NCBI GenBank assembly: GCA_003599505.1
Contig: QZKO01000077.1
Span: 1-41,739, forward strand
Reading direction: 5' to 3'
DNA from: Nitrospiraceae bacterium
GTDB taxonomy: Bacteria > Nitrospirota > Thermodesulfovibrionia > UBA6902
Length of the DNA: 41,739 nucleotides
Shown: positions 7,531 to 23,096 of the stretch, one piece after another
How the letters are laid out: each line of letters opens with the position of its first letter
Numbering within the stretch: the first letter of the stretch is position 1
Made by a program: the position numbers and the translations under genes
Notes under the pieces: model-generated
What the model saw: only the letters and a program-made list of their open reading frames with translations
The model's database searches: none
What the model was told of the DNA's origin: nothing

Positions 7531-7581
7531 GGTTTAAAAGTGAGAAGTGAGAACCCACTTCCTGCTTCCTACTTAATATTA

Positions 7582-7656
7582 TGGAGCGGGCGACGGGATT
7601 CGAACCCGCGACCCCAACCTTGGCAAGGTTGTGCTCTACCACTGAGCTACACCCGC
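7582..7656 (-). tRNA. tRNA-Gly (GCC)
   Basis: The minus strand gives GCGGGTG acceptor arm, D-loop AGTGGTAGAGC, anticodon loop TTGCCAA (anticodon GCC), T-arm GGGTTCGAATCCC and an encoded CCA. Length 75 nt. It is upstream of tRNA-Cys, so the two are probably one transcript starting from the promoter at 7726-7755. Confidence 0.96.
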
Positions 7657-7665
7657 GTTGAACAG

Positions 7666-7687
7666 GGGGCGTATTGCAATACGCCCC
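7666..7687. repeat. REP-like palindrome, copy a
   Basis: A perfect 22-nt palindrome, GGGGCGTATTG and its reverse complement, followed by TAC. It belongs to the family of GTAGGGGC...GCCCCTAC hairpins that recurs at 14284, 15774, 19297, 19346, 19665, 19979, 22338 and 22949. Here it sits between tRNA-Gly and the trpE promoter. Confidence 0.8.
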
Positions 7688-7707
7688 TACAACAATTAAC
7701 TTAAATG

Positions 7708-7720
7708 GTCTATAATAGAC
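7708..7720 (+). promoter_or_regulatory. trpE -10 region embedded in a perfect inverted repeat (possible operator)
   Basis: GTCTATAATAGAC is a 13-nt perfect inverted repeat around one central A, and contains TATAAT (7711-7716) in the right place to be the -10 box of the trpE transcript. The -35 side (TACAAC, 7688-7693) is poor and overlaps the flank of palindrome copy a. A repressor bound here would block both this promoter and the divergent tRNA promoter. The operator role is inference; the repeat itself is plainly visible. It does not resemble the E. coli TrpR box. Confidence 0.4.
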
Positions 7721-7725
7721 TTTTA

Positions 7726-7755
7726 ATAGTAAAGAAAAAAAACGGATTTTGTCAA
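7726..7755 (-). promoter_or_regulatory. predicted sigma-70 promoter for tRNA-Gly/tRNA-Cys, overlapping the trpE start
   Basis: A consensus TTGACA (minus strand, 7750-7755) is 18 bases from TACTAT (7726-7731). It points at the tRNA genes, with tRNA-Gly beginning about 60 bases downstream of the predicted start. The -35 box ends on the first base of the trpE ATG, so tRNA and trp transcription share a very compact divergent control region. Confidence 0.55.
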
Positions 7756-17225: not shown

Positions 17226-17598
17226 ATGGTAAACGGACCAGAAGACAAAGCCCGCGAAGTAATTGACGATATGCTTGAAAAGGCAGGATGGCATGTCTGT
17301 GACATGAAGGATGCCAATATTTACTCGAGGGCATGGGGACGGTTTTCAGCGAGCGACGCGGGTCTGCATCTCTACCATTCAGCGGCTGTATTCAATTCTC
17401 AAAGGTGAGGAGATTAATGACGAGCTTGATGAGGAATCAATATTCGACCATACGGACCTTTTTAAAGAGCATCAAAGGTCAGAGGCGCAAGTGCGCAGAA
17501 GATACTTACTGATCTGGTTTCATTGTAAGGCTTATCAGTTGTTTGGGGAAGAGTTGTATTCCATAATGGATGAATTAAATGAGGTGCTGGCGGCGTAA
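17226..17598 (+). pseudogene. remnant of type I restriction HsdR: N-terminal stub and frameshifted C-terminal piece
   Basis: An ATG at 17226 with AAAGGGA upstream opens a 60-codon frame whose first 35 residues (MVNGPEDKAREVIDDMLEKA, then GWHVCDMKDANIY) match the usual N-terminus of type I restriction R subunits (ARxxIDxxLExAGWxVxDxxxxNIY). The similarity ends there. A second frame (17311-17598) continues with a charged piece ending KAYQLFGEELYSIMDELNEVLAA, which resembles an HsdR C-terminal tail; this part is less certain. The roughly 800-residue nuclease-helicase core is missing. The last 67 bases recur at 19201-19267. The original enzyme cannot be functional here. Confidence 0.6.
17530..17596 (+). 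repeat. 67-bp direct repeat, copy 1
   Basis: This copy forms the end of the hsdR-like remnant. It matches 19201-19267 at 65 of 67 positions; the two differences (A/G at third codon positions) are both synonymous. The pair flanks the AAA/DUF4143 gene, with 1,671 bases between equivalent points. Confidence 0.9.
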
Positions 17599-17695
17599 CA
17601 AGTATCGATAGAATTGTTAAATATAGACTTTTAAGTTAATATATGGTAAGTATACTTAGTATATATTGAGCTAAAAATGATAGCGAGGAGAATTA

Positions 17696-19159
17696 TTGAA
17701 GGATTTTTTTAACAGGGATGAGATTCTCAACGTACTCCAGGGATTTAACCCGTGGTGGGCTAATAAATCTTATGCAGTACCGGAATTCCGACGCATCGCA
17801 TTCGAGGCATGCAGAAAATATCTGGAAGATATGGCACTAAAGCGAGCTGTGCTCCTTTCAGGCCCGCGCCGTGTTGGAAAAACTACGGTCCTGCTCCAGA
17901 TTGCAGATGAACTTGTAAAAAGCGGGAAAGATCCGAAGAGCATCTTTTACATCAGCCTTGATCACCCGCTCCTGAAACTGCTCAGCATTAGAAAAGTTCT
18001 GTCTCTGTACGGCGAGTCCGTTTATCCAACAAACAAGCCGACGTATCTTCTCTTCGACGAGATCCAATATTCAAACGAATGGGAGACGGAGATAAAGCTG
18101 CTTGTTGATCACCAGCCGAACTATCGAATCATCGCTACCGGGTCTGCAAGCGTTACCCATCGGGAACAGTTGGCCGAAAGCGGCGTAGGCCGCTGGATAA
18201 CTGTTCCGATTCCGACGCTTTCCTTCTATGAGTTTGTTCATATACGTGGCGAGCATTTGCCTGATATTTTACCGACGCTAAAGCCATCTGACCTTTTTTC
18301 TTTCTCTCAGGAAGCATTTATTGATCTGGCGGTGCGGTGCCGGGAACTCCAGCCTTCTTTTCAGCAGTATCTCCTCGTAGGCGGATTTCCGGAGACGGCC
18401 CTTCTGAAGAATATAGGTCTTTGTCAGCGGCTCCTGCGTGAGGATGTTGTGGAGAGGGTGCTGAAGCGTGACATGACCGCGCTTTTCGGGGTGCGTAAAG
18501 TCGCTGAACTCGAAAAGCTCTTTATTTATCTCTGTCTCCATAGCGGCAGCATCGTTGCCCATAAGACTTGTGCCGATGCTTTGGAAACCTCCCCTGCTAC
18601 GGTATCGAGTCATCTCATCCTGCTCGAACAGGCGAATTTGATTTATCGTCTGACCCCGGCAGAGATTACCGGAAAAAAGATATTAAAGGCGAGAAACAAG
18701 TATTACCTTGTTGATGCGGCGCTCAGGAACGCAGTTTTGCTCCGGGGGGAGGAGATCCTGACCAATCCTGAGGAGATGGGGGTTATTGCAGAGACAACAG
18801 TGCTAAGGCACTTGTATGCCTATTATTATCGGGATGTGCCTGCGATTGTATACTGGCGCGACCCGGTGTCTCAGAAAGAAGTGGACATCATAGTGCGAAG
18901 CCCTAACTTTACATTTCCTTTTGAGGTCAAATATCGGGAAAAACCAAATCTCGGCAGCACAAGCGGGCTTGTCGCCTTCTGCCGTCTCGCAGACGTCAAG
19001 AAGGCCTACTGGGTCACAAAGCTCGATAAGGATTTCGGTGTCACTCAATTCGAGGGATTAGAAGATGAGTATGGGCGACCAACTGAGTTCCTGAAAATAC
19101 CAGCGCATATTTTATGCTATCTTCTCGGCCAGGCTGAAAGACTGTTGTGGAAAGAGTAA
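17696..19159 (+). CDS. AAA-family ATPase with DUF4143 C-terminal domain
   Basis: The 487-aa product has an AAA_14 ATPase domain (Walker A GPRRVGKT at 56-63, Walker B YLLFDEIQY with D121 and E122, sensor-like ATGSAS) and a C-terminal DUF4143 domain with a nuclease-like fold (ALRNAVLLRG, VAETTVLRHL, then YWRDPVSQKEVDIIV and FEVKYRE, which has the D...ExK spacing of PD-(D/E)xK enzymes). Such proteins are widespread, often mobile and of unclear function. Start is TTG at 17696 with GAGGAG five bases upstream. It stands alone between the two 67-bp repeats, so it looks like a passenger. Upstream bases 17645-17670 hold AT-rich inverted sequence that may contain its promoter. Confidence 0.85.
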   Translation: MKDFFNRDEILNVLQGFNPWWANKSYAVPEFRRIAFEACRKYLEDMALKRAVLLSGPRRVGKTTVLLQIADELVKSGKDPKSIFYISLDHPLLKLLSIRKVLSLYGESVYPTNKPTYLLFDEIQYSNEWETEIKLLVDHQPNYRIIATGSASVTHREQLAESGVGRWITVPIPTLSFYEFVHIRGEHLPDILPTLKPSDLFSFSQEAFIDLAVRCRELQPSFQQYLLVGGFPETALLKNIGLCQRLLREDVVERVLKRDMTALFGVRKVAELEKLFIYLCLHSGSIVAHKTCADALETSPATVSSHLILLEQANLIYRLTPAEITGKKILKARNKYYLVDAALRNAVLLRGEEILTNPEEMGVIAETTVLRHLYAYYYRDVPAIVYWRDPVSQKEVDIIVRSPNFTFPFEVKYREKPNLGSTSGLVAFCRLADVKKAYWVTKLDKDFGVTQFEGLEDEYGRPTEFLKIPAHILCYLLGQAERLLWKE

Positions 19160-19200
19160 TGAACGGCAGTAGTGTGCTGCCTGAAGGTGGATTGGGGAAA

Positions 19201-19267
19201 GCTTATCAGTTGTTTGGGGAAGAGTTGTATTCCATAATGGATGAGTTGAATGAGGTGCTGGCGGCGT
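19201..19267 (+). repeat. 67-bp direct repeat, copy 2 (detached hsdR-like tail)
   Basis: It encodes KAYQLFGEELYSIMDELNEV and LAA followed by TGA, in an open frame but without a start. The rest of the gene is absent. The segment 19160-19391 otherwise contains a run of nine G (19280-19288) and palindromes d and e, and no gene of its own. Confidence 0.88.
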
Positions 19268-19296
19268 GAAGCAATCTAAGGGGGGGGGTAATTCGT

Positions 19297-19324
19297 GTAG
19301 GGATAATTCATGAATTATCCCTAC
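19297..19324. repeat. REP-like palindrome, copy d
   Basis: A perfect 28-nt palindrome with arms GTAGGGATAATTCA and its reverse complement. It is 95 bases upstream of the RAYT gene and identical to the copy inside that gene (19665-19692). Confidence 0.9.
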
Positions 19325-19345
19325 GAAAGGGATTTCCGGGGATAT

Positions 19346-19370
19346 GTAGGGACAATTCACGAATTGTCCC
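19346..19370. repeat. REP-like palindrome, copy e
   Basis: GTAGGGACAATTC-AC-GAATTGTCCC: the arms pair except for the central two bases, and the right flank CTAC is replaced by AAAG. It lies 22 bases upstream of the RAYT start, and may affect its expression. Confidence 0.85.
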
Positions 19371-19391
19371 AAAGGGCATGGGCAGGCAAGA

Positions 19392-19943
19392 TTGAAATAC
19401 AATTGTGAAATACATCATCGCCGTTCTATACGGTTAAAGGAATATGATTATTCACAGGAAGGGGCATATTTTGTAACAATATGTGCATGGAACAGAGAAT
19501 GTTTGTTTGGGGAGATTGTGAATGGTGAAATTGAATTGAATGAATATGGCCGAGTCGTGAAGAATTATTTTGAGAACATTGAAGGGCGTTATGACAATGT
19601 TGCTTTAGATGAATTTGTTGTAATGCCCAATCATGTACATGGCATCGTAATGATCGAGCACTCCGTAGGGATAATTCATGAATTATCCCTACAGGCATCG
19701 TTTGCAGAACGATGTAAACAACGCAGAAAGATGTTATTACCCAAAATTCTCGGATGGTTTAAAATGAATTCGGCAAAATCAATAAATCAAATGCGAGACA
19801 GCGAAGGCCGTCCTGTGTGGCAAAAGAATTATTATGAACACGTTGTCCGTAATGAGAAGGAGTTGCGGTCTATTCAGGAATATATTATCAATAATCCATT
19901 ACAATGGGAATTGGACGAAAATAATCCGGTGAATATTAGATGA
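19392..19943 (+). CDS. REP-associated tyrosine transposase (RAYT, Y1/HUH family)
   Basis: RAYTs are single-copy HUH endonucleases of the IS200-like superfamily that cut and are thought to spread REP palindromes. The 183-aa product begins KYNCEIHHRRSIRLKEYDYS, with YFVTICAWNRECLFGEI, the HUH motif MPNHVHGI (His81, His83) and the catalytic region NYYEHVVRNEKELRSI (Tyr147 or Tyr148), ending YIINNPLQWELDE. Start is TTG at 19392. Residues about 92-100 (VGIIHELSL) are encoded by a family palindrome inside the gene, in frame, in the variable loop after the HUH motif. Its stop overlaps the ATG of the hsdS remnant. It is flanked by palindromes d, e and g, the classic RAYT arrangement. Confidence 0.88.
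   Translation: MKYNCEIHHRRSIRLKEYDYSQEGAYFVTICAWNRECLFGEIVNGEIELNEYGRVVKNYFENIEGRYDNVALDEFVVMPNHVHGIVMIEHSVGIIHELSLQASFAERCKQRRKMLLPKILGWFKMNSAKSINQMRDSEGRPVWQKNYYEHVVRNEKELRSIQEYIINNPLQWELDENNPVNIR
19665..19692. repeat. REP-like palindrome, copy f, inside the RAYT gene
   Basis: A perfect 28-nt palindrome identical to copy d. It is within the reading frame of the transposase and contributes the peptide VGIIHELSLQ. Confidence 0.92.
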
Positions 19944-20791
19944 GGACATCTTCACATGCAAGCGATAGCGATGCAAACGTAGGGGCAATTCATGAATTGC
20001 CCCTACGGGAGACGCTGCCGGAGGGGTGGGTCTTAAAAAAATTAAATGATGTCTGCAACATCATAATGGGACAGTCGCCACCGGGGAATACGTACAACAA
20101 AGATAAATCCGGGCTGCCATTTTTTCAAGGGAAAGCAGAATTTGGAGTACGTTACCCAACGGCTGTTAAATGGTGTTCAAAGCCAAAAAAAGTTGCTCAT
20201 AAAAATGATGTGCTGATTTCCGTAAGAGCGCCGGTCGGTCCGACAAATATCGCCTCTTCAGAATGCTGTATTGGTCGAGGATTGGCGGCAATTCGACCTT
20301 TAGAAGGAACAGACTATTTTAACAGAGCCAGAAAGGTATCAGAAAACGTATTGGAGGAACACAAGCACAGATATAGCCTGAAATTGGGTGATTTTATTTT
20401 CGGTAAAATCGGTACAATCGGCAAACCAGTTAAACTATACCCACCCTTTAACTTTGCCTTATCTGCAAATATAGTGTTAATTCAGCCTCAAGATTCGATT
20501 CTTTTACCCGCGTTTTGTTTTAGCTATATGGATAGTCCCTTAATGGATCATGTTATTAGGAAAGAAAGTAGAGCTACAACGCAAGCAGCATTCGGTATTC
20601 AGAAAGTAAGAATAATACCTATCCCTTTGCCACCTCTTTCAGAGCAACAGAATATTATTGAAGAAGTCGAACGACGTCTTTCTGTTGCAGAAGACATTGA
20701 AATCGAAATAGAAACAAATCTTAAACGCGCTGAACGCCTACGGCAGTCGATTCTGAAAAAGGCGTTTTCGGGGAAGTTGCTTAGTCAATAA
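19940..20791 (+). CDS. type I restriction specificity subunit HsdS, internally deleted
   Basis: HsdS normally holds two target-recognition domains (TRD) separated by helices and is about 400 aa or more. This frame has 283 aa: from residue 29 (LPEGWVLKKLNDVCNIIMGQ) it follows TRD1 to SVRAPVGPTNIASSECCIGRGLAAI, then goes directly into a second-domain pattern (YSLKLGDFIFGKIGTIGKPV ... RIIPIPLPPLSEQQNIIEEV) and the C-terminal helix ending RQSILKKAFSGKLL. So roughly one TRD seems to be deleted. The first 28 residues, including VGAIHELPLRE, come from palindrome copy g and its flanks. The ATG overlaps the RAYT stop. Single-TRD HsdS that dimerise do exist, so residual function is not excluded, but no intact HsdM is near. 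Confidence 0.75.
   Translation: MRTSSHASDSDANVGAIHELPLRETLPEGWVLKKLNDVCNIIMGQSPPGNTYNKDKSGLPFFQGKAEFGVRYPTAVKWCSKPKKVAHKNDVLISVRAPVGPTNIASSECCIGRGLAAIRPLEGTDYFNRARKVSENVLEEHKHRYSLKLGDFIFGKIGTIGKPVKLYPPFNFALSANIVLIQPQDSILLPAFCFSYMDSPLMDHVIRKESRATTQAAFGIQKVRIIPIPLPPLSEQQNIIEEVERRLSVAEDIEIEIETNLKRAERLRQSILKKAFSGKLLSQ
19979..20006. repeat. REP-like palindrome, copy g, at the hsdS 5' end
   Basis: A perfect 28-nt palindrome with arms GTAGGGGCAATTCA and reverse complement. It is in frame in the 5' end of the hsdS reading frame and encodes VGAIHELPLR. Confidence 0.92.
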
Positions 20792-20817: not shown

Positions 20818-21459
20818 ATGAAAATATTTATTAGTTACTCAATACATGATAAAGAGATAGCAGGTGCATTAAAAAAGTATTTAGAGGAGCATGATGACAT
20901 TGAATGTTTTATTGCACATGATGATATTCCTTATGGTTCTGAGTGGGAAGAAGATATAATCAGCAATTTAAAATCAGCAAATTATTTTATGCCGTTGCAA
21001 ACAGAGCAACTTACTAAATCATATTGGTGTCAGCAAGAAGCTGGTTTTGCGGTTGCGAAGGGCATTAAAATAATTCCGTTAATTCCTGATGAAGGAGGGG
21101 TTGATCCGGTAGGCTTCTATAAGCGCTTTCAGGGATTTAGAGTAAGAAATGATGATTTGAGAAGTTCTGTAAAAAAATGGCTGATAAAAGAAGGGATTAT
21201 TACAGATAATTCTGAAGAAATCGAGAAAAGAATAATGGTGTTTGATAAGTCAAATTCATTTCTTGAAGCAGAAGATAATGCTCGGTCTCTTCTCGATCTA
21301 TCAGAGCATTTCACAGAGGGGGATATCTTACGAATTGTTGAGATTACTTTAAAAAATGATCAAATAAAAAATTCGTTTAATGCTCGTAAGCATTTAAAGA
21401 AATTCTTTATGAGACATTCCACTATTATTCCTAAAAAACAACTGGAAGAATTATTGTAA
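20818..21459 (+). CDS. TIR-domain protein, 213 aa (possible NAD+ hydrolase)
   Basis: The N-terminal half (residues 1-130) is a bacterial TIR domain: MKIFISYSIHDKEIAGALK, box-2-like FIAHDDIPYGSEW, and YWCQQEAGFAVAKG with Glu74 in the position of the catalytic glutamate of TIR NADases. The C-terminal half (about 130-213) is charged and helical, without a recognised domain. TIR proteins serve as NAD+-consuming effectors in several defence systems, usually with a sensor partner; none is obvious next door. The gene is strikingly A+T-rich compared with the housekeeping genes, a sign of transfer. Its last codons and stop lie on a fragment of hsdM in another frame. Confidence 0.8.
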   Translation: MKIFISYSIHDKEIAGALKKYLEEHDDIECFIAHDDIPYGSEWEEDIISNLKSANYFMPLQTEQLTKSYWCQQEAGFAVAKGIKIIPLIPDEGGVDPVGFYKRFQGFRVRNDDLRSSVKKWLIKEGIITDNSEEIEKRIMVFDKSNSFLEAEDNARSLLDLSEHFTEGDILRIVEITLKNDQIKNSFNARKHLKKFFMRHSTIIPKKQLEELL

Positions 21460-21493
21460 CGTCCTTCGGGACGATGGATTGAATTATATATGA
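21443..21493 (+). pseudogene. fragment of HsdM N-terminus, copy 1
   Basis: In the frame beginning at TGG 21443 the sequence reads WKNYCNVLRDDGLNYI and then a stop. It matches the HsdM signature KLWNYCNVLRDDG. The 17 bases 21458-21474 are identical to 23043-23059 in copy 2. The TIR gene stops within it and the Fic ATG (21490) overlaps its TGA. Confidence 0.6.
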
Positions 21494-22143
21494 AAAAATC
21501 TAATCGCTACAATACAGCGCATCTTGTTGAAGATCAATATGAGCCGGGTTCTAACGGCCAAGTGCTAAAAAACAAGCTCGGCATAGCAACCACATCAGAA
21601 ATGAACAAGCTCGAAAAAGAAGAGCAGTTGCGGGCACTGGATGAACTGACTGACATTTTCGAGAAAGACCACCGCTTCAGCGTTGCAGACATCTGCAAAA
21701 TGCACAAAATATGGCTTCGCAATATTTACGAATGGGCCGGTAAATACCGGCAGGTGAAGATGAGCAAGGAAGACTTCACTTTTGCCTTTCCTGAACAGAT
21801 TCCAAAATTAATGACTGAGTTCGAGAAAGGGCCGCTCCGTGAGTTCACTCCCTGTCATTTTAAGACACACGCTGAGATCGCCAAGGCATTGGCAATTGTG
21901 CATACGGAATTGGTTCTTATTCATCCATTCAGGGAAGGTAACGGAAGAGTAGCAAGAATGCTGGCTATATTGATGGCCATTCAGGCAGGTCTCCCGCCGC
22001 TTGATTTTGGTGTTATGATAGACGAAGAAAAAGAGAAATATATCAAGGCAATTCATGCAGGAGTAGAGCGAAACTATGAGCCGATGGGAAAGGTATTTAC
22101 TTCTGTGATTCGTAAGACGCTGAGGGCTCGTGAACAGCAATGA
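21490..22143 (+). CDS. Fic-domain protein (AMP transferase or related), probable toxin
   Basis: Fic enzymes transfer AMP or other phosphate-containing groups to target proteins. The 217-aa product has the full catalytic motif HPFREGNGRVAR (residues 145-156), including the histidine base and the second arginine, and the family N-terminal part (YEPGSNGQVLKNKLG, IYEWAGKYRQVKMSKEDFTF). It has no N- or C-terminal inhibitory helix of its own that I can see, so it looks like a class I enzyme needing a separate antitoxin. A matching antitoxin-like gene lies convergent at 22097-22303, overlapping its 3' end by 47 bases. Start at 21490 has no strong ribosome-binding site. Confidence 0.88.
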   Translation: MKKSNRYNTAHLVEDQYEPGSNGQVLKNKLGIATTSEMNKLEKEEQLRALDELTDIFEKDHRFSVADICKMHKIWLRNIYEWAGKYRQVKMSKEDFTFAFPEQIPKLMTEFEKGPLREFTPCHFKTHAEIAKALAIVHTELVLIHPFREGNGRVARMLAILMAIQAGLPPLDFGVMIDEEKEKYIKAIHAGVERNYEPMGKVFTSVIRKTLRAREQQ

Positions 22144-22337: not shown

Positions 22338-22379
22338 GCATGTTGTAGGGGCAATTCATGAATTGCCCCTACAACATGC
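22338..22379. repeat. REP-like palindrome, copy h, 42-nt perfect
   Basis: The usual 28-nt core (22345-22372, arms GTAGGGGCAATTCA) is extended by GCATGTT on the left and AACATGC on the right, giving a fully self-complementary 42-nt sequence upstream of the antitoxin-like gene. The rest of 22304-22537 shows no gene. Confidence 0.92.
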
Positions 22380-22771: not shown

Positions 22772-22952
22772 AACAAAAAAGAATATTGATGAATTCTTTA
22801 ATAATGGAAGTGAAATAGACGAAGCTCTACAAAAAGCTGTAAAAGAGGCTCTCTTGCAACATAAGAAGGCGGGCAATCCGGTTGTGTCATGGAAAGACGG
22901 GCAGATTGTCTGGATCCAGCCTGATGATATTATTGTTGAAGACAAGACGTAG
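22764..22952 (+). CDS. small partner of zeta-like kinase (putative antitoxin), 62 aa
   Basis: The product starts MSETKKNIDEFFNNGSEIDE and contains the pattern EALLQHKKAGNPVVSWKDGQ followed by IVWIQPDDI, typical of small proteins paired with zeta-like kinases. It appears intact while its partner is gutted, as expected if the antitoxin is kept or lost last. GAGAGGGA lies upstream of the ATG. Its TAG stop is provided by the first bases of palindrome copy i. Confidence 0.6.
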   Translation: MSETKKNIDEFFNNGSEIDEALQKAVKEALLQHKKAGNPVVSWKDGQIVWIQPDDIIVEDKT

Positions 22953-22972
22953 GGGCAATTCATGAATTGCCC
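22949..22972. repeat. REP-like palindrome, copy i, right arm truncated
   Basis: GTAGGGGCAATTC pairs with GAATTGCCC, after which the expected CTAC is replaced by TTTC. The TAG in its left end is the stop codon of the 62-aa gene before it. Confidence 0.85.
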
Positions 22973-23000
22973 TTTCACATGAGAATTCCAATATAAAATT

Positions 23001-23096
23001 ATGAGTCCTGCACAAATCGTCCAAAAACTCTGGAATTACTGCAACGTCCTTCGGGACGACAGAGGATTTGGGAGAGGAGAACGAGGCATAGAATGA
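23001..23096 (+). pseudogene. fragment of HsdM N-terminus, copy 2, 31 codons
   Basis: The frame starts MSPAQIVQKLWNYCNVLRDD, the standard beginning of type I DNA methyltransferase subunits, then leaves the family (RGFGRGERGIE) and stops. The rest of hsdM, including its SAM and NPPF motifs, is absent. Its TGA overlaps the ATG of the glycosyltransferase at 23093, so the fragment may now act as a translated leader for that gene. Confidence 0.68.

Follow-up and report, generated by a model that had tools for sequence, protein, structure and literature searches.

Introduction

Unrelated genes embedded in type I restriction-modification operons are already known. The rlo and mlo ORFs of C. jejuni and tgvAB on VPI-2 of V. 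cholerae lie at hsdR-hsdS in such operons (PMC5183652, PMC11411939), DarTG2 of EPEC lies between hsdS and hsdR, at a site called a potential recombination hotspot (PMC12255303), and prrC is a gene embedded in a type I R-M operon (PMC3874165). The loci described here share with these cases that unrelated defence or toxin genes sit between the hsd genes. The accessible parts of these accounts contain no copies of the hsdR 3' end, no tail exchange and no preferred entry codon; to that extent the present loci differ from the known embedded genes in that embedding has left a recognisable scar.

The nearest named mechanism is insertion with long target duplication, which was reportedly described in bacterial genomes by the Kobayashi group (Nobusato et al. 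in 2000, Furuta et al. in 2010; titles cited in PMC3874152). There, a long direct repeat is said to flank inserted genes without an obvious transposase, the repeat being the duplicated target. Our loci also have a long direct repeat flanking the insert and no obvious transposase, but the tails of the copies differ wherever they are comparable, and it is always the same gene end that is hit. At tRNA, guaA, rlmH and similar sites, integrative elements provide their target with a new 3' end and displace the old end to the far side. The supply of a new 3' end and the displacement of the old one are found here as well, whereas an integrase is missing, the cargo amounts to one to three genes, and the junctions are tied to the cargo stop codon. 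No description of the hsdR 3'-end scar, the tail swap or the preferred entry codon was found in the papers that could be searched, so that scar and tail swap may be new, although an earlier account in the long-target-duplication work is possible.

A decayed type I operon with two hsdR 3' ends

The window, i.e. the whole stretch of DNA that was analysed (41,739 nucleotides from a Nitrospiraceae bacterium), contains a decayed type I restriction-modification operon with an AAA_14/DUF4143 gene inserted at the hsdR 3' end. Loci and genomes used for comparison are designated L and G, respectively; L058 (genome G004) and L059 (genome G007) belong to the same genus as the window. The features are:

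17226..17598, + strand: hsdR pseudogene (tblastn with the intact L023 HsdR; three-frame translations)
17527..17596, + strand: proximal hsdR 3'-end copy, ending in TAA (direct repeat, sequence)
17629..17676, no strand: imperfect palindrome (inverted repeat) 5' of the AAA gene (repeat search)
17696..19159, + strand: AAA_14/DUF4143 ATPase gene, the cargo, 487 aa (Pfam AAA_14 4e-32, DUF4143 3e-29)
19159..19269, + strand: free hsdR 3'-end copy, a 36-codon mini-ORF ending in TGA (sequence; aligns with the L059 and L058 hsdR 3' ends)
19198..19267, + strand: distal copy of the direct repeat (repeat search, assembly search)
19392..19943, + strand: RAYT-like Y1 transposase gene (Y1_Tnp 2e-7; same place in L059 by synteny)
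19940..20791, + strand: hsdS, shortened, 283 aa (Methylase_S 2e-17; PADLOC Specificity_I)
20818..21459, + strand: TIR-domain gene of the same remnant operon (TIR_2 2e-16)
21490..22143, + strand: Fic-domain gene (Fic 2e-21; PADLOC PDC-S04 9e-75)

The original prediction had reported a repeat with 65 of 67 identical positions and two synonymous differences. Both are confirmed (the differences are GAA/GAG and TTA/TTG), and a repeat search in the window extends the match to 67 of 70 bases (17527-17596 and 19198-19267). Searched against the window's own assembly, the 70-mer matches at these two places only, with E values of 1e-30 and 2e-26, hence the repeat is not due to chance. As also predicted, both copies end the same reading frame, and they are translated as KAYQLFGEELYSIMDELNEVLAA followed by a stop codon, TAA in the proximal and TGA in the distal copy. 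This sequence is the C-terminus of the intact HsdR of L059 and L023 (type I restriction, EcoEI_R_C family); the L059 protein matches Pfam EcoEI_R_C at 1e-40, and also ResIII. The distal copy extends beyond the repeat and starts at about LPEGGLG (19180); the left limit of the repeat results from a deletion within the proximal copy, not from the duplication.

The proximal copy closes the hsdR pseudogene, so the gene attached to it is dead. The remnants of the pseudogene (17226-17324, 17350-17469, 17472-17525 and 17527-17598) lie in order and in more than one frame, and correspond to residues 2-33, 275-314, 824-841 and 921-943 of the intact L023 HsdR. In both the window and L058, hsdR has lost several separate internal stretches while what is left has kept its order; the deletion ends differ between the two. 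The distal copy had been described as having no gene attached. It is indeed free-standing, but it forms part of the mini-ORF at 19159-19269, which starts on the stop codon of the AAA gene, ATG and TAA overlapping as TAATG. Coding selection on both copies, which had been proposed as well, cannot be derived from two synonymous changes, which are too few, and the proximal copy belongs to a pseudogene.

The AAA gene of the window lies between hsd genes, but both hsdR and hsdS are remnants, and the hsdS start overlaps the RAYT stop. The gene stands alone, while the cargo of relatives includes toxin-antitoxin pairs, and it matches the PADLOC candidate PDC-S01 at 4e-59. The palindrome preceding it may be a promoter or operator that travels with the cargo; similar AT-rich TATATATA...TATATA stretches were found 5' of AAA_14/DUF4143 orthologues. 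Further downstream, a 27-bp direct repeat of 93% identity, GAATTATTGTAACGTCCTTCGGGACGA, flanks the Fic region (21448-21474 and 23033-23059); one copy lies at the TIR gene end and the other just 5' of a glycosyltransferase gene. Near-identical REP-like palindromes, GTAGGGRYAATTCATGAATTRYCCCTAC, are located at 19297-19324, 19665-19692, 19979-20006, 22345-22372 and 22949-22973. They cluster around the RAYT gene, and L059 has matching units.

The empty site in the same genus

A site with a single copy, as the original prediction had proposed to look for, is present in the same genus. L059 carries an intact, full-length hsdR (80% identical to L023 HsdR) with one 3' end, followed by RAYT and hsdS. 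Positions 19180-20319 of the window align to L059 at 73%. As this alignment starts inside the distal copy, the distal copy represents the original end, now displaced, to which the AAA gene and the proximal copy were added. Direct repeats thus flank the insert and a single copy marks the empty site, as in insertion with long target duplication.

The proximal tail of the window matches the tails of G007 and G004 at 68 and 67 of 72 positions, the distal tail at 68 and 69 of 72. Both copies are therefore equally close to the relatives' tails, and the proximal tail is not visibly foreign. This weighs against the general model proposed below, but the comparison does not tell a native from a foreign tail at this locus. 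At the same place L058 contains another insert, an antitoxin-toxin pair, without a free copy. In L058 and likewise in L061, a toxin-antitoxin pair separates hsdR from hsdS and no copy of hsdR is detectable beside it; hence, the duplication is not obligatory.

Recurrence with unrelated cargo

Sampled genomes from four groups were searched with a profile that covers the last 64 codons of HsdR, and HsdR loci were tallied by hand from near-complete profile matches only. Of ~105 HsdR loci in these sampled genomes, about 15 carry more than one hsdR 3' end, with two or three ends per locus; the second copy is shorter, on the same strand and 0.4-1.7 kb downstream. Further loci were obtained by family-level sampling, and 27 loci were read in all. 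The arrangement recurs in bacteria of several phyla. Arrays are also present on contigs of 2.72 Mb and 4.62 Mb, the latter a single contig, which are whole or nearly whole chromosomes (G522, G1288); as the arrangement is the same there and the copies differ, an assembly artefact was rejected.

In most relatives read, an unrelated gene on the same strand lies between hsdR and hsdS. The cargo between the copies comprises AAA_14/DUF4143, RhuM, Fic (in L113), MNT with a HepT-like HEPN gene, DUF2281 with PemK, Unstab_antitox with ParE, Phd with YafQ, a Phd-like with a RelE-like gene, and a GIY-YIG gene. Families were assigned by Pfam (RhuM, Fic, PemK, ParE, YafQ, HepT-like, DUF2281), and some by sequence reading. 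The AAA_14/DUF4143, Fic and RhuM cargo genes match the PADLOC candidates PDC-S01, PDC-S04 and PDC-S05.

Orthologues of the AAA gene with 64-77% identity are found in Nitrospirota, Planctomycetota, Proteobacteria and other MAGs. Five of them lie between hsdR 3' ends (L023, L024, L032, L034 and L112), which bears out the proposal that such flanked genes be sought in other genomes. In L035 a single hsdR end is located upstream of the orthologue, and no hsdR 3' end was found at the orthologues in L025-L031 and L033. In L029, an hsdR N-terminal fragment, not a 3' end, follows the orthologue (7535-7755).

The absence of an integrase near the window locus had been correctly noted, and no recombinase or integrase was found among the cargo ORFs or beside the cassettes in the loci read. 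RAYT genes are often neighbours of arrays. The RAYT transposase was rejected as a general agent, since the empty site already has it and most arrays lack it. A RAYT gene between hsdR and hsdS is seen in the window (19392-19943), L131, L138 and L059, and that of L131 overlaps the hsdR stop by 4 nt; from this repeated position, RAYT may itself be cargo of the site. A plasmid collection gave six weak matches, and the one inspected contained no array; it is an unannotated hsdR end beside an IS256 element in Vibrio campbellii. Among solved structures, no convincing match to the HsdR C-terminal domain was found.

Tail swap and junctions

Nine cassette-bearing loci and six uninterrupted loci of one Nitrospirota family were compared along hsdR. 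Before the -66 bp point, identity between full-length hsdR genes from cassette loci and the uninterrupted genes is 0.71-0.72, and the uninterrupted genes reach 0.75-0.81 among themselves. In the last 66 bp, the identity between cassette full-length and uninterrupted hsdR falls to 0.46 and 0.60, while the cassette full-length tails are 0.83-0.89 identical among themselves. The free copies behave the other way round, with 0.74-0.78 to the uninterrupted tails and only 0.45-0.60 to the full-length cassette tails. At the protein level, tails beside the cargo are FPEGLQNIIEALNMALVA-like, and those of free copies and uninterrupted genes are FGNELNRIIEELNGALAA-like. As the cassettes share tails and the free copies are native-like, a cassette is made up of its cargo and a foreign hsdR tail.

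In L032, three hsdR 3' ends alternate with a RhuM gene and an AAA gene. From -108 to -66 there is 100% identity between the middle copy and the upstream hsdR, whereas the last 33 bp of the middle copy resemble the AAA-associated tails of L034 (0.91) and L112 (0.79) and have 0.58 identity with the locus's own upstream hsdR. By this sequence pattern, the AAA cassette went into the free copy left by the RhuM insertion. Since proximal tails are unlike native ones in the Nitrospirota, and also at the AAA cassettes of L032, L034 and L112, the two ends are not copies of one target. The original prediction, an integration that restores the 3' end of its target, thus holds in that an insertion left two hsdR 3' ends, but not as a simple target duplication; where a comparison is possible, hsdR ends in a foreign tail next to the cargo, and the native tail is found in the free copy.

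The free copy starts at hsdR GAA ATG ATC, ~160 bp before the hsdR stop, for RhuM, AAA, PemK, RelE, HEPN and Fic cargo, and for RhuM, AAA, PemK and RelE the cargo stops are AAATGA overlapping hsdR AAATGATC. That six of about eleven cargo families fall within six bases has a chance of the order of 1e-6 or less, a rough hand estimate which assumes independent cargo families and a uniform entry point over 192 bp. None of the free copies starts before about model position 11. Later-starting free copies (positions 15-43) have other cargo, deletions or inserted REP-like repeats, and the right junction varies by codons in YafQ and ParE cargo. Several free copies thus start elsewhere, and the GAA ATG ATC hot spot is a strong preference rather than a rule. 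The left junction is bracketed only, at about -66 bp. At the right end of the cargo, no conserved sequence beyond the stop codon was found. In the free hsdR copies of L034 (7434-7586), L112 and L101, a REP- or repeat-like sequence, CCCCTCTCCC...GGGAGAGGG, is inserted in frame, and similar sequence is also seen inside full-length hsdR genes.

The free copy as a link to hsdS

The two genes overlap by 4 nt in uninterrupted loci, with the hsdS start at -4 from the stop of hsdR, and this overlap with hsdS is kept in most free copies. Because the hsdS start lies within the hsdR end, the stop of hsdR and the start of hsdS can both survive an insertion only if the overlap and any upstream ribosome-binding signal are repeated. 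Most free copies are in-frame mini-ORFs leading from the cargo stop to the hsdS start, with a start codon on the cargo stop or at most ~20 nt from it (ATGA, GTGA or TAATG); those of L023 and L113 form an in-frame fusion with the ORF before them. Between L109 and L110 there is a six-base difference directly after the cargo stop, and the frame is kept. Among ~780 free-copy codons scored there are zero stops, while L146, read later, has a stop inside its free copy. The free copies of L115 and L116 have no start near the cargo stop, and together with the internal stop in L146 this indicates that coupling is not universal. Translational coupling would be the natural reading of why the free copies are retained.

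Proposed mechanism and alternatives

The best explanation of the data, to which we assign a probability of about two thirds, is an insertion-duplication through recombination guided by homology and microhomology, which would have been retained since it leaves the stop of hsdR and the start of hsdS intact. In such an event, a foreign hsdR tail plus cargo gene would enter ~66 bp short of the hsdR stop, at the conserved GGLGKVHQLF, through either a template switch or pairing of homologous or homeologous sequences. Rejoining would take place further upstream in the recipient hsdR, usually at GAAATGATC, ~160 bp before the stop, via microhomology with the cargo's own end, often AAATGA. The outcome would be an hsdR with a working foreign tail, a gained cargo, and the native last ~50 codons left as a free copy, the duplicated native stretch covering about -160 to -66. 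Since the hsdS start, and by implication its ribosome-binding site, lies within the hsdR 3' end, the free copy would be kept, with its mini-ORF as the translational bridge between the cargo stop and the start of hsdS. In the window, the proximal copy would have come with the insertion or been remade by it, the distal copy being the original, displaced end. Homology-facilitated illegitimate recombination, or two template switches during repair synthesis, are possible routes; a search for papers yielded no added evidence for them. Near-identical strain pairs with and without a cassette were not found, and the recombination steps are a reconstruction.

A dedicated site-specific system would instead use the hsdR 3' end as attachment site and the hsdR tail of the cassette as att site, with an unlinked or unrecognised recombinase that inserts and excises in the manner of integrases restoring target 3' ends. 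Such a system would account for the entry point shared by six unrelated cargo families in several phyla, for a foreign tail that moves with the cargo and restores the gene, and for the use of free copies as new targets (L032). We nevertheless consider it unlikely, given that no shared recombinase or integrase is seen in or beside the cassettes, that the right end of the cargo is not conserved past its stop codon, that the YafQ and ParE junctions vary by codons, and that selection for the ATGA overlap also predicts a shared junction. Equally doubtful is its fullest form, in which hsdR ends are attachment sites of integron-like cassettes without a linked integrase, so that hsdR tails with toxin-antitoxin or defence cargo circulate between phyla, enter one fixed site and stack, and the duplicated end relays translation to hsdS. 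A long target duplication, with the recipient's own sequence duplicated around the insert and no foreign tail, would suit the window, where both copies are close to the same-genus hsdR, and the middle part of the L032 duplication (93-100% identical); the proximal tails that differ from native ones in the Nitrospirota, L032, L034 and L112 make it just as improbable.

Alternatively, the free copies may encode a small HsdR C-terminal-domain protein that regulates restriction and is selected as a peptide, which would be compatible with insertion. Their pN/pS is near 0.23, compared with 0.22 for full-length pairs, values in which the history before and after insertion is inseparable, and for L109/L110, with the same cargo, it is 0.07. 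This divergence may, however, largely predate insertion or reflect gene conversion with hsdR. Changes at conserved sites are commoner in free copies (14 of ~230, excluding L023, whose row is misregistered) than in full-length genes (9 of 494, the set which also defined the sites), many copies are down to 20-30 codons, and some contain in-frame repeat insertions, so that we regard a functional peptide, too, as improbable. Least credible is a tandem duplication of the whole hsdR, or of a merodiploid region, later deleted down to the 3' end. The large internal deletions in hsdR of the window and L058 would fit it, but free copies begin at the cargo stop in unrelated loci and none reaches upstream of about model position 11, and empty sites with a single copy exist. 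The related suggestion of recombination between two hsdR-like copies finds no counterpart, since no second full-length hsdR was traced in any locus.

Significance

Taken alone, the window case is a decayed, ordinary-looking insertion; the class to which it belongs is recurrent and crosses phyla. This class bears directly on the way in which defence genes become lodged within other defence systems. PDC-S01, PDC-S04 and PDC-S05 are already candidate defence genes in PADLOC, whose models are silent on how the genes arrived. How a gene enters an operon of overlapping genes without breaking it is unexplained in the accessible literature, and the scar answers part of this question: the insertion swaps the hsdR tail, and the native tail stays as a linker to hsdS. 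The scar is directly searchable and lists embedded candidates together with their entry point, and the mechanism is testable in transformable strains.
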